From Pseudomonadota bacterium (lineage in GTDB: Bacteria; Desulfobacterota; Binatia; Binatales; Binataceae), in contig JAJPIG010000020.1 of assembly GCA_021324855.1 (NCBI GenBank), positions 62,001 to 126,000 of the forward strand: a DNA stretch of 64,000 bases, in the 5' to 3' direction. Position 1 is the first letter of the stretch; each line of letters begins with the position of its first letter. The position numbers and the translations under genes were made by a program. The notes below the pieces were generated by a model. It saw only the letters and a program-made list of their open reading frames with translations. It was not told where the DNA came from and ran no database searches. This document shows, one piece after another, positions 22,259-25,821 of this stretch.

Positions 22259-23230
22259 TCAACCCCTCTCCACCGGGAAGCCTGCACGGTTCCACTTTTC
22301 CATGCCGCCTCGGAGAACCGAAATCTGCACGAATCCGGCTTCTGAAAGCATGCTGGCAGCGCTCGCCGAGCGCTTCTGGGTTCGTCAGATGGTTATGATC
22401 GGTTCCTGCTTCTCTTTCAGTTCCGCGAGTCTTCCGGGCAGCTCATCGATCGGTATGTTAATCGCGCTCGCAATGTGTCCGAGCGGCCCTCGAAATTCTT
22501 CGGCGCTGCGCACGTCTATCAGCGCGACTTTGTCATCGTGTTCCAGGCGCCGTTTGAGTTCTGCGGCGTCGATGAAACGTGGGCCTTTGAATCGACGAAC
22601 GAGGCGCGGCAGGAAGGCGACGGTTGCCAGCAGACCGAGCGCTACAAGACCGTTGCGGATTACGCCCGCGCTGCCCGCGGCGGCCTGCCGGCCGGCGTAG
22701 CCCAGGTAGGTGTAGGCTACCGCTCCCGGCGCCATGCACACGAACGAGGCGATCACGTATTCCACGAGACGGATTCGCGTCAGACCGAAAGCGTAATTCA
22801 CCAGATTGAATGGAAACAGCGGAACCAGCCGGACGAAGGCAACAAAACGCCATCCTTCCTCCTCCACCCCTCTTATCAGCCGAGCCAGCCGCTCGCCGAT
22901 ACGCCCCGAGACCCAGTCGGACGCGACGTAGCGCGCGGCCACGAAGGCGAGCGTGGCTCCCAAGGTGGCGCCCGTCAGGTTCCACAGAGTTCCCCAAATA
23001 GGACCGAAAAGAGCACCGCCGGCCACCGTGAGAACCGACCCCGGAAGGAACAGGACCGTGGACAGCGCGTAAAGCCCGATGAACAGAATCGGCGCCCATG
23101 GCCCAAAGCGCTGGAGTTCCTGCTCTAATGCGTTAGTTGCAAAAATTTCGCGATGGAACGCGAGCCATGCGATCGCTGCAAGCAGCGCCGTGACTAAGAT
23201 CAGTCGATAAATGAAACTACGAGTACTCAT
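22259..23230 (-). CDS. TVP38/TMEM64 membrane protein with C-terminal rhodanese domain; in-frame TGA at the catalytic Cys (candidate selenoprotein)
   Basis: Residues 1-215 form a TVP38/TMEM64 (DedA-like) membrane domain (FLPGSVLTVAGGALFGPIWG, FVRLVPLFPFNLVNYAFG). Residues 218-323 are a rhodanese domain (VALIDVRSAEEFRGPLGHI). The plain ORF ends at TGA 22385-22387 after IITI, codon 282. The frame continues 41 codons to TGA 22259-22261 and reads RTQKRSASAASMLSEAGF then VLRGGMEKWNRAGFPV, the missing rhodanese half. The TGA thus replaces the catalytic cysteine of the usual CRT/CRSG loop. A SECIS-like hairpin follows. ATG 23230 has GGAGG upstream and overlaps the desaturase stop (ATGA). Alternative: nonsense mutation or base-call error. 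Confidence 0.75.
22358..22374 (-). promoter_or_regulatory. SECIS-like hairpin downstream of in-frame TGA
   Basis: On the minus strand, ten bases after the TGA, AGCGCTC-GGC-GAGCGCT forms a perfect 7-bp stem with a GGC triloop. The loop starts 17 bases after the TGA, and its first two bases are G. The known bacterial SECIS pattern is a short stem with G among the first two loop bases, about 16-37 nt from UGA. The fit is seen; function is inference, and GC-rich codons can give such stems by chance. Confidence 0.5.
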
Positions 23231-24054
23231 GCTGCGCTCCTCCAGGTGATTGGATACCCACCCGTTGGGCCACGAAACGGCTGCAGCAGCATCCGGTCGA
23301 GCCATAACTCGCGGGCTTCGCGGAACTGCTCGATGCCGATGGTCATTCGGTCATGGCCCGCGGCGGGCTGAGCGCGATAGGTGCCAAGCAAACGATCCCA
23401 CCACGGCAGGTTGAAGCCGAAGTTGCTATTGGTCTCGCCGACCACGATCGAGTGATGAACGCGGTGCATGTCAGGCGTCACCACGAGCCATCGCAAATAG
23501 CGATCGAGCCGCAAGGGAAGGCGGACATCGCCGTGATTGAACATCGAGGTCGCATTGAGCAGAACCTCAAACGCCAGCACGCCCAGCGCCGAGGCGCCGA
23601 GTGCGGCGACGACGCCGAACTTGATCAGCATGGACAGGATGATCTCGATCGGATGGAACCGCGCGCCGGTGGTCACGTCGAAGTCCAAGTCGGCGTGATG
23701 CATCCGATGGACCCGCCAAAGCGCGGGGACCGCATGAAACATCACGTGCTGCAGATAGATGGCGAGATCCAGCAGGACTACCGAAGCAATGCTCACGACC
23801 CATCCGGGAAGCGGCAGATTGTTCAGGAGGCCCCAGCCCCGCTGCGACCCGAGCAGCGCCAAACTCACGGCGGTCGCGGGAAGGAGGATCCTCACGAGCG
23901 CCGTATTAAGCGCAACAACGGCGAGGTTGCTCGGCCAGCGGCGGGCTCGCGAATACGCCCTTTGGCGGCGCGGCGCGACCGCTTCCCACAGCGCCATCGT
24001 GACGAACACGCCCGCAAACGCACCGAGCCGTATGATCGCTTCATTGTTAAGCAT
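23227..24054 (-). CDS. fatty acid hydroxylase / sterol desaturase superfamily protein
   Basis: Integral membrane di-iron oxygenase family. The histidine clusters are HVMFH (HX3H), HRMHH (HX2HH) and HRVHH near the C-terminus, followed by NFGFNLPWWDRLLGTY. Several hydrophobic segments lie in the first 120 residues. ATG at 24054 is preferred over an upstream TTG at 24075. It overlaps the TVP38-rhodanese gene by ATGA, so the two are co-translated. Divergent from arsR-rhodanese across about 60 bp. A lipid substrate is likely, perhaps linked to the arsenic/lipid island, which is inference. Confidence 0.87.
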   Translation of the reverse strand: MLNNEAIIRLGAFAGVFVTMALWEAVAPRRQRAYSRARRWPSNLAVVALNTALVRILLPATAVSLALLGSQRGWGLLNNLPLPGWVVSIASVVLLDLAIYLQHVMFHAVPALWRVHRMHHADLDFDVTTGARFHPIEIILSMLIKFGVVAALGASALGVLAFEVLLNATSMFNHGDVRLPLRLDRYLRWLVVTPDMHRVHHSIVVGETNSNFGFNLPWWDRLLGTYRAQPAAGHDRMTIGIEQFREARELWLDRMLLQPFRGPTGGYPITWRSAA

Positions 24055-24058
24055 TGAC

Positions 24059-24088
24059 TTCAATACAACAATCAATTAAGTTCTTGAA
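24059..24088. promoter_or_regulatory. AT-rich divergent operator candidate
   Basis: The 61-bp gap between the divergent desaturase and ArsR-family genes is sharply AT-rich and contains TTCAA-N20-TTGAA ends plus an inner ACTT/AAGT pair. This is a plausible site for the ArsR-family repressor encoded next door. No exact match to a known operator is claimed. Confidence 0.3.
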
Positions 24089-24115: not shown

Positions 24116-24787
24116 ATGTCAAGCCAGAATCCAAAACGCGCCATGTTCGAACACCTGGCTGCTGTCGCTCGCAGCCTCGGCTCAGCGCATCGGCTTGAAC
24201 TCCTTGAGTTGCTTGCGCAGACGGAGCGGAGCGTGGAGGAGTTGGTCAAATTGACCGGCCTCACGCTCGCAAACGCTTCGCAACATTTGCAGCAATTGCG
24301 CCGTTTCGGCCTGGTGGAGGCGCGCAGAAGTGGGAAGCACGTGATCTACAGGCTGGCCGACCCGGAAGTGGTCAGGCTGCTGGAGGCTTTGTCGCGGGTG
24401 ACCGAGCGCAATGTCGGCGCGGTCGAAAAGCTGCTCAACAGCTATTTCCGCGAGCGCGACCGCCTCGAACCGCTGTCACGCCGGGAGCTGCTGCGGCGCA
24501 TGCGCGACGGACTGGTTACCGTGATCGATACGCGTCCGCCCGAAGAGTTTGCCGCCGGCCACGTGGCTGGCGCGATTAATCTGCCGCTGAGCGAGCTCAA
24601 ACGCCGCCTGCGGGAACTGCCCCGCGAGCAGGAGATTGTAGCCTACTGTCGCGGGCCATATTGCGTGCTCTCCTATGAAGCAGTGGCCGAGTTGCGCAAG
24701 CGCGGCTTCAAGGCCGTCCGGCTCGAGGACGGGTACCCCGAGTGGAAGGCCGCCGGTCTGCCCGTGGAGCAGTCCGCCAATCTCTGA
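24116..24787 (+). CDS. ArsR-family transcriptional regulator fused to a rhodanese domain
   Basis: 223 residues. The N-terminal winged helix-turn-helix spans about 10-100 (SAHRLELLELLAQTERSVEELVKLTGL; LANASQHLQQLRRFGLVEAR). A rhodanese domain follows at about 125-220 (VIDTRPPEEFAAGHVAGAINLP). The usual ArsR metal-binding cysteine motif in the recognition region is absent. The protein's only cysteines are Cys178 and Cys183 in the rhodanese loop AYCRGPYC. This suggests sensing of sulfane sulfur, persulfide or arsenic through that loop. It precedes the ArsS-like gene on the same strand and probably controls both divergent units. Confidence 0.9.
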   Translation: MSSQNPKRAMFEHLAAVARSLGSAHRLELLELLAQTERSVEELVKLTGLTLANASQHLQQLRRFGLVEARRSGKHVIYRLADPEVVRLLEALSRVTERNVGAVEKLLNSYFRERDRLEPLSRRELLRRMRDGLVTVIDTRPPEEFAAGHVAGAINLPLSELKRRLRELPREQEIVAYCRGPYCVLSYEAVAELRKRGFKAVRLEDGYPEWKAAGLPVEQSANL

Positions 24788-24819
24788 GTGCCTGCGCCTC
24801 GCTGGCTTGTTCAAACGCT

Positions 24820-25821
24820 ATGCATGATCGCGAAGGAATGACGACCGAGTTCCAGCAATTCGACACGACCTTAGCGTGTTATGGATTCGCTCCGCTGCGG
24901 CGCGCTCGTACCCGCACGGCGCAGGTGAACGTCGGTAAGTTGTGCAATCAGGCCTGTCATCATTGCCACGTCGATGCAGGGCCGAAACGCACCGAGCGCA
25001 TGATGCGCGACACCGCCGAGCGTCTTATCGAACTGTTAAGCACGAGCCCCGCAATCGAGATCGTTGACATCACCGGTGGCGCACCCGAGCTGAACGACAA
25101 CTTCCGCTTCCTGGTCGAAAATGCGCGGATGCTTGGCCGACGAGTGATAGTTCGCTGCAACCTCACAGTGCTGTCGATGGCTTCCATGGAGTGGCTGCCC
25201 GAATTCTACCGGAGCGCCGGCGTTGATTTGATCTGTTCCTTACCCTGCTACACGCAGCAGAACGTTGACAGTCAGCGCGGAAAGGGCGTCTTCGACAAAA
25301 GCATCGACGCCCTTCGCCTGCTAAATCGGCTGGGATATGGACTGCCGGAGTCGGACCTCGGGCTCGACCTGGTTTATAACCCCGTCGGGGCGTTTCTACC
25401 GCCGCCACAGGCCGGACTCGAAGAAGGTTATCGTTGCGAATTACGAAACCATTTTGGCATCGAGTTCCATCACCTTCTCACGATAACGAACATGCCGATA
25501 AAGCGGTTTGCCGAACAGCTTCACCGGTGGGGCAAGACCCGGGAATATCTCGGCCTGCTGGTCAATCACTTCAACCCCGAAACGATCGACGGATTGATGT
25601 GTCGTCACTTGGTAAGCGTCGGCTACGATGGAACGCTTTACGACTGCGACTTTAACCAGATGCTCGAAATGCCTGTACGCCATGGTGAGAACGGTCGCCC
25701 TCTGACCATATGGGAAATAGCCGACCTTTCTGAATTGGATGGCCTGCGGATCGCTACGGCGCAGCACTGCTTCGGCTGTACCGCCGGCTCGGGCTCAAGC
25801 TGCGGCGGTGCGCTTGCGTGA
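24820..25821 (+). CDS. arsS: radical SAM / Cys-rich protein, ArsS-type (arsenosugar biosynthesis)
   Basis: About 333 residues. The radical-SAM cluster is in KLCNQACHHCHVDAGP (CX3CX2C), followed by VDITGGAPELNDNFRFL. The C-terminal Cys-rich domain ends CFGCTAGSGSSCGGA, the hallmark of ArsS-type proteins. The family makes 5'-deoxyadenosylated arsenic species for arsenosugars and was first named for rSAM/selenodomain loci. All C-terminal cysteines here are ordinary TGC/TGT codons. The start is uncertain between ATG 24820 and 24838. No arsM is seen nearby. Confidence 0.88.
   Translation: MHDREGMTTEFQQFDTTLACYGFAPLRRARTRTAQVNVGKLCNQACHHCHVDAGPKRTERMMRDTAERLIELLSTSPAIEIVDITGGAPELNDNFRFLVENARMLGRRVIVRCNLTVLSMASMEWLPEFYRSAGVDLICSLPCYTQQNVDSQRGKGVFDKSIDALRLLNRLGYGLPESDLGLDLVYNPVGAFLPPPQAGLEEGYRCELRNHFGIEFHHLLTITNMPIKRFAEQLHRWGKTREYLGLLVNHFNPETIDGLMCRHLVSVGYDGTLYDCDFNQMLEMPVRHGENGRPLTIWEIADLSELDGLRIATAQHCFGCTAGSGSSCGGALA

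Follow-up and report, generated by a model that had tools for sequence, protein, structure and literature searches.

At least five forms of bacterial selenocysteine (Sec) rhodaneses are recognised (Rhodanese-like forms 1–5), including NF041203 with its CxU motif and TsoB (NF045694; 2026 review, PMC13188914), and Sec rhodaneses had also been reported earlier (PMC9312934; PMC1088965). Members of the VTT/DedA superfamily act as lipid scramblases or flippases in eukaryotes and in some bacteria (PMC10127716). The same paper reports DedA/VTT-rhodanese fusions for COG0586, with the Pfam pair PF09335 and PF00581 that is also found in the protein described here, and its passages on these fusions make no mention of selenocysteine. 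The closest solved relative of the rhodanese domain described here is BpPRF (5ve3), a persulfide dioxygenase-rhodanese fusion. TVP38/TMEM64-type proteins presumably belong to COG0398, unlike the reported fusions of COG0586.

The gene analysed here very probably encodes a selenoprotein, judging from its sequence and that of its relatives: a cytoplasmic-membrane protein of the VTT/DedA superfamily with a Sec nucleophile in its C-terminal rhodanese domain. We read its TGA codon 282 as Sec because the same codon is present in five related genomes, because the full Sec machinery is encoded in the genome, and because the codon is followed by a hairpin that matches that of selD. The gene lies within the window, that is, the whole stretch of 64,000 nucleotides that was analysed, as follows:

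22262..23230, minus strand: coding sequence of the TVP38(VTT)-rhodanese fusion, 323 amino acids with codon 282 read through (frame translation, Pfam)
22385..22387, minus strand: TGA codon 282, predicted Sec at the rhodanese catalytic position (translation, homologue and structure alignment)
22259..22261, minus strand: true terminal stop, TGA codon 324

An earlier note on this DNA had placed an in-frame TGA at codon 282 of a TVP38/TMEM64-rhodanese fusion at 22259–23230. Translation from the ATG at 23230 bears out the codon and the coordinates and puts the gene on the minus strand; this interval contains no such frame in the other direction. Under the standard code, 281 residues are followed by a stop, and the listed ORF, which starts at an in-frame ATG farther upstream, is ended by the same TGA. 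From TGA 282, 41 codons run to the terminal TGA. The peptide with which the frame had been said to resume is encoded there, and 28 of the 41 third positions are G or C, both as claimed. Pfam assigns residues 62–178 to VTT_dom (E 2.4e-27) and residues 222–315 to Rhodanese (E 2.3e-21), the latter enclosing codon 282. With a PF09335 score of 96.3 bits against a cut-off of 33.9, the protein belongs to the VTT/DedA superfamily; as a rhodanese it scores above the PF00581 cut-off and has its nucleophile in a six-residue loop (C/U-x4-R).

The assignment of codon 282 to the rhodanese catalytic Cys site was confirmed by alignment with Cys314 in the BpPRF rhodanese domain (5ve3). In 5ve4 and 5ve5, in which BpPRF is inactivated at C314, the column aligned with residue 282 of the fusion is occupied by Ser. 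The active-site loop reads U-R-T-Q-K-R-S here, with six residues from U to R, and URT[QEAK][KR]RS across the Sec copies. A six-residue U/C-x4-R loop is of the sulfurtransferase type, whereas Cdc25/ACR2-type enzymes have C-x5-R (seven residues). A structure model of the fusion, made from 22 relatives, has a moderate mean pLDDT of 76, with low values midway through the VTT domain. Residue 282 is predicted to lie between a strand (278–281) and a helix (285–297), as in the rhodanese active-site loop, and the best structural matches of the model are the BpPRF entries 5ve3, 5ve4, and 5ve5 (45% identity, rmsd 1.5 Å over 105 columns). BpPRF resembles the fusion in this identity and in its active-site loop (C-R-x3-R-S), but its nucleophile is Cys and its fusion partner a soluble dioxygenase, whereas the fusion here combines a predicted Sec with a membrane domain.

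Among 41 genomes of the order, four further full-length fusions (72–74% identity) contain a single TGA each, located at codon 282; internal TGAs are absent from all other full-length fusions. Two of the TGA copies are on the public contigs DAHVFB010000149 and JAJXYF010000037, and the copies with the same TGA come from independently assembled genomes. The argument that a chance stop would be unlikely to fall on this one codon is upheld, as TGA is also found there in L023, L024, L025, L026, and a shortened copy in L032, with the other codons open. Alignment of homologues at codon 282, which had been proposed as a check, found only Cys or TGA: Cys, encoded by TGC or TGT, in 15 distinct full-length relatives from the same family and from the Alpha- and Gammaproteobacteria, and Cys again in two more distant relatives. 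No Sec copies outside the family were found in the phylum sample at E ≤ 1e-90. A maximum-likelihood tree places the five full-length Sec proteins in a single group (support 99/97) nested among Cys proteins, and for this reason the simplest history is a single change, in which Sec would have replaced Cys once, within this bacterial family. When the full-length Sec genes are compared in ten pairs, pN/pS lies at 0.25–0.32 before the TGA and at 0.20–0.44 after it, with dS of at least 0.4 throughout; by these estimates, purifying selection is alike on both sides of the TGA, which is the pattern of translated sequence.

The shortened copy, in genome G032 (L032 1375–2163, minus; L120 6636–7412, minus), has an in-frame loss of ~62 residues (about 218–279) that takes away the greater part of the N-terminal half of the rhodanese domain, while URTKKRS, the TGA, and the hairpin are retained. 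The loss may be genuine or an artefact of assembly. In genome G035 (L121, G035:C213, 3079–3771 onward), the TVP38 part is intact and the rhodanese part is decayed by a TAG and frameshifts; going by the sequence, this relative has lost the Sec/Cys domain. A further candidate for a TGA rhodanese came up in G039 and was rejected: its TGA is the ordinary terminal stop after a Cys-form rhodanese and has no hairpin.

The genome (3.75 Mb in 38 contigs, 96% complete) contains selA, selB, selC, and selD, all four of the genes that the earlier note had proposed to look for. SelA was detected at 579 bits, SelB at 370 bits, and tRNA-Sec, with anticodon UCA, at 71.7 bits; selD adjoins selB, and SelD has an in-frame TGA at its own active site. 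This TGA in selD is found in all ten genomes checked. The SelD of the lineage is itself a selenoprotein (AAGUAGKLGP; L018 1531), with a GGC-loop hairpin 17 nt past the UGA. Formate dehydrogenase was rejected as a Sec control, as its top match showed no in-frame stop in any of the ten genomes. The Sec machinery is also present in related genomes carrying the rhodanese TGA. Since nearly all family members have selA and selB, Sec and Cys copies within this family cannot be told apart by whether the machinery is present.

Downstream of TGA 282, we detected a hairpin:

22358..22374, minus strand: SECIS-like hairpin AGCGCTC-GGC-GAGCGCT, nucleotides 14–30 counted from the T of the TGA, with the apical loop GGC at nucleotides 21–23

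All six TGA copies share GCGCTC-GNN-GAGCGC, with nucleotides 15–20 paired with nucleotides 24–29 (same count), and Cys copies have at most three pairs at this position. Among the TGA copies, the stem is invariant, while both the loop (GGC, GTC, GGT) and its codon (Ala, Ser, Val) differ from copy to copy. The Sec-UGA hairpin of selD in this lineage is spaced identically and has GG[CA] as its loop (GGC in the same genome), although SelD is an unrelated protein and its stem sequence is unrelated. In a combined rhodanese and selD set of 13 distinct sequences, 98.7% of cells are paired and 4/6 pairs are changed on both sides; this covariation is that of two unrelated genes with one geometry, and not covariation inside one gene. 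Sliding the partner strand by 1–3 columns in this set destroys the pairing. The exact geometry, defined as at least 6 bp at the spacing of the candidate hairpin with G first in the loop, occurs at one of the 1,837 TGAs of the window, which is the candidate itself, and at eight of 3,694 TGAs of other loci, six of these eight being the Sec-UGAs of orthologues and selD.

The candidate, with a GGC loop, 7 bp, a distance of 17 nt, and −11 kcal/mol, lies within the published limits for bacterial SECIS elements (bSECIS), namely a loop of 3–9 nt with G in the first two places, a stem of 4–16 bp, a distance of 16–37 nt from the UGA, and MFE ≤ −7.5 (PMC13188914). Generic bSECIS rules, even with a 6-bp minimum stem, fit 20.6% of the TGAs in the window and are unspecific. 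The stability of the hairpin (z −0.72) is not significant and is ordinary for GC-rich sequence. Because stability is unremarkable and the generic rules are permissive, the case for a SECIS element rests on exact position and on the match with selD. An Rfam scan of the window returned a tRNA only, with no SECIS family match, and the hairpin downstream of the terminal TGA (22261–22259) does not have the Sec geometry. The sequence features by which bacterial selenoproteins are recognised are found together here: a UGA at a catalytic position with Cys homologues; SelA, SelB, tRNA-Sec, and SelD; a hairpin within the bSECIS limits; and a conserved UGA with constraint beyond it.

The genes beside the fusion are as follows:

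23227..24075, minus strand: gene of the FA_hydroxylase family that weakly matches the ornithine lipid hydroxylase OlsE, conserved upstream partner
24116..24787, plus strand: ArsR-type regulator that ends in a Cys-form rhodanese domain, divergent, conserved neighbour
24742..25821, plus strand: ArsS (TIGR04167), Cys form GSGSSCGGALA, local neighbour

The stop codon of the FA_hydroxylase-family gene overlaps the ATG of the fusion (ATGA). In most relatives, an FA_hydroxylase-like gene lies directly upstream of the fusion and an ArsR-rhodanese regulator lies divergently beside it. Two glycosyltransferases (TIGR04282/04283) adjoin the locus in the window and are also found in some relatives. Together with ArsS, they account for the earlier remark that neighbouring families are named for rSAM/selenodomain loci. 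As a hint of Sec, this remark did not hold up: the local ArsS has Cys at the Sec site and is not adjacent to the other Sec copies examined. No ArsS was found within the sequence examined beside the Sec copies in G005, G033, G022, and G015, and ArsS was rejected as a functional partner of the fusion, being local only and in the Cys form.

Several observations on these gene families can be added. ArsS, of the arsenosugar family, has Cys and not Sec at its known Sec site in a genome that can make selenoproteins. A NifS/IscS-like cysteine desulfurase gene lies downstream of the Cys-form fusion in two alphaproteobacteria (L055 6734–7876, plus; L062 5976–7100, plus). Some relatives have a VTT protein without a rhodanese domain (L067–L095, compared with L055–L065), and ArsS is close to the rhodanese-less VTT gene in L072, L074, L076, L077, L080, L084, L085, L092, and L094. 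The neighbourhoods of the rhodanese fusion and of ArsS seem to be largely alternative.

TGA 282 could be a premature stop that arose from a TGC codon by mutation, pseudogenisation, or sequencing error and leaves a truncated protein. The change is a single base in a draft genome of 38 contigs, and the rhodanese part has indeed decayed in the relative G035. The same TGA in five other genomes, purifying selection on the half downstream, and the presence of the Sec machinery nevertheless make a premature stop extremely improbable. We give just as little credence to decoding of UGA 282 as another amino acid, for example as Trp by near-cognate read-through or under a TGA=Trp code. The frame would be open under any reassignment of TGA, but TGA is the normal end of both the fusion gene and ArsS, a tRNA-Trp found has the anticodon CCA and the tRNA found with UCA is that for Sec, Cys is the only residue that homologues have at codon 282, and the Sec hairpin geometry is present. 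Compatible with a selenoprotein is a conditional product, which would be full-length with ample selenium and would end at UGA 282 with little, leaving the VTT domain and half a rhodanese; the gene would then respond to selenium. Selenium-dependent read-through is a general property of Sec-UGA codons, and the VTT domain lies wholly before the UGA. The truncated rhodanese may, however, simply be degraded, and we regard such a conditional product as conceivable but rather unlikely.

With UGA 282 read as Sec, the parts present suggest how the protein would be made: SelD would make selenophosphate, SelA would turn Ser-tRNA-Sec into Sec-tRNA-Sec, and SelB, bound to the hairpin with its GGC loop 17 nt past the UGA, would deliver the latter to this codon. 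Sec282 may then accept sulfane sulfur, donated by a persulfide or a compound of the thiosulfate type, forming an Se-S intermediate, and would hand the sulfur on at the membrane. We lean moderately towards such sulfane-sulfur transfer chemistry by the predicted Sec rhodanese, and the most likely function of the protein would be that of a membrane-bound sulfane-sulfur transferase. This fits because of the persulfide dioxygenase-rhodanese fusion as closest solved relative, the length of the loop, the rhodanese-bearing regulator, and the desulfurase in two relatives. Alternatively, the domain might act on an oxyanion such as arsenate, in the manner of ACR2/Cdc25, which would suit the ArsS and TIGR04282/04283 genes adjoining in the window and the glycosyltransferases of some relatives. 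The U-x4-R loop is sulfurtransferase-like and not the C-x5-R of Cdc25/ACR2, however, and the 45% identity with BpPRF, the lack of ArsS beside other Sec copies, and the adjoining cysteine desulfurase in two Cys-form relatives also speak against activity on an oxyanion, which we consider improbable.

As a putative Sec-dependent sulfurtransferase, the fusion shares with known Sec rhodaneses the PF00581 domain and a Sec in or near the active site. It differs from them in its motif, which is URT[QEAK][KR]RS as opposed to the listed UxxS, UxxG, CxU, and UxxxxU, and in its fusion after a VTT domain. Its score is 50.5 bits against a cut-off of 115 for NF041203 (rhodanese_LYCAU) and 23.8 against 805 for TsoB (NF045694), and it reaches the cut-off of none of the NCBIfam selenoprotein models. 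Rhodanese-like form 1 (UxxS; WP_010941598.1) was compared by motif and differs in it, the six Sec copies having URTQ, URTE, URTA, or URTK. Among the papers searched, none joins TVP38 or DedA with rhodanese and selenoprotein or selenocysteine, and the deep-Sep paper contains no mention of such a protein.

The fusion looks like a new membrane-anchored subfamily of the already known Sec rhodaneses that arose once by Cys-to-Sec replacement. We think it likely that it represents a previously undescribed selenoprotein family: a membrane-anchored, Sec-dependent sulfurtransferase whose gene has a lipid-hydroxylase-like gene and an ArsR-rhodanese regulator as conserved neighbours, and which derives from one Cys-to-Sec event in an uncultured (Binataceae-like) lineage. 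If this is true, a membrane-bound sulfurtransferase joins the list of selenoproteins, and it is one that standard-code ORF calling cuts off inside its active site. A matched comparison of Sec and Cys forms would be possible with the close Cys relatives, which belong to the same conserved gene pair. The common 17-nt spacing and three-base loop with G first would amount to a lineage-specific SECIS rule, with which more selenoproteins could be found in uncultured bacteria.
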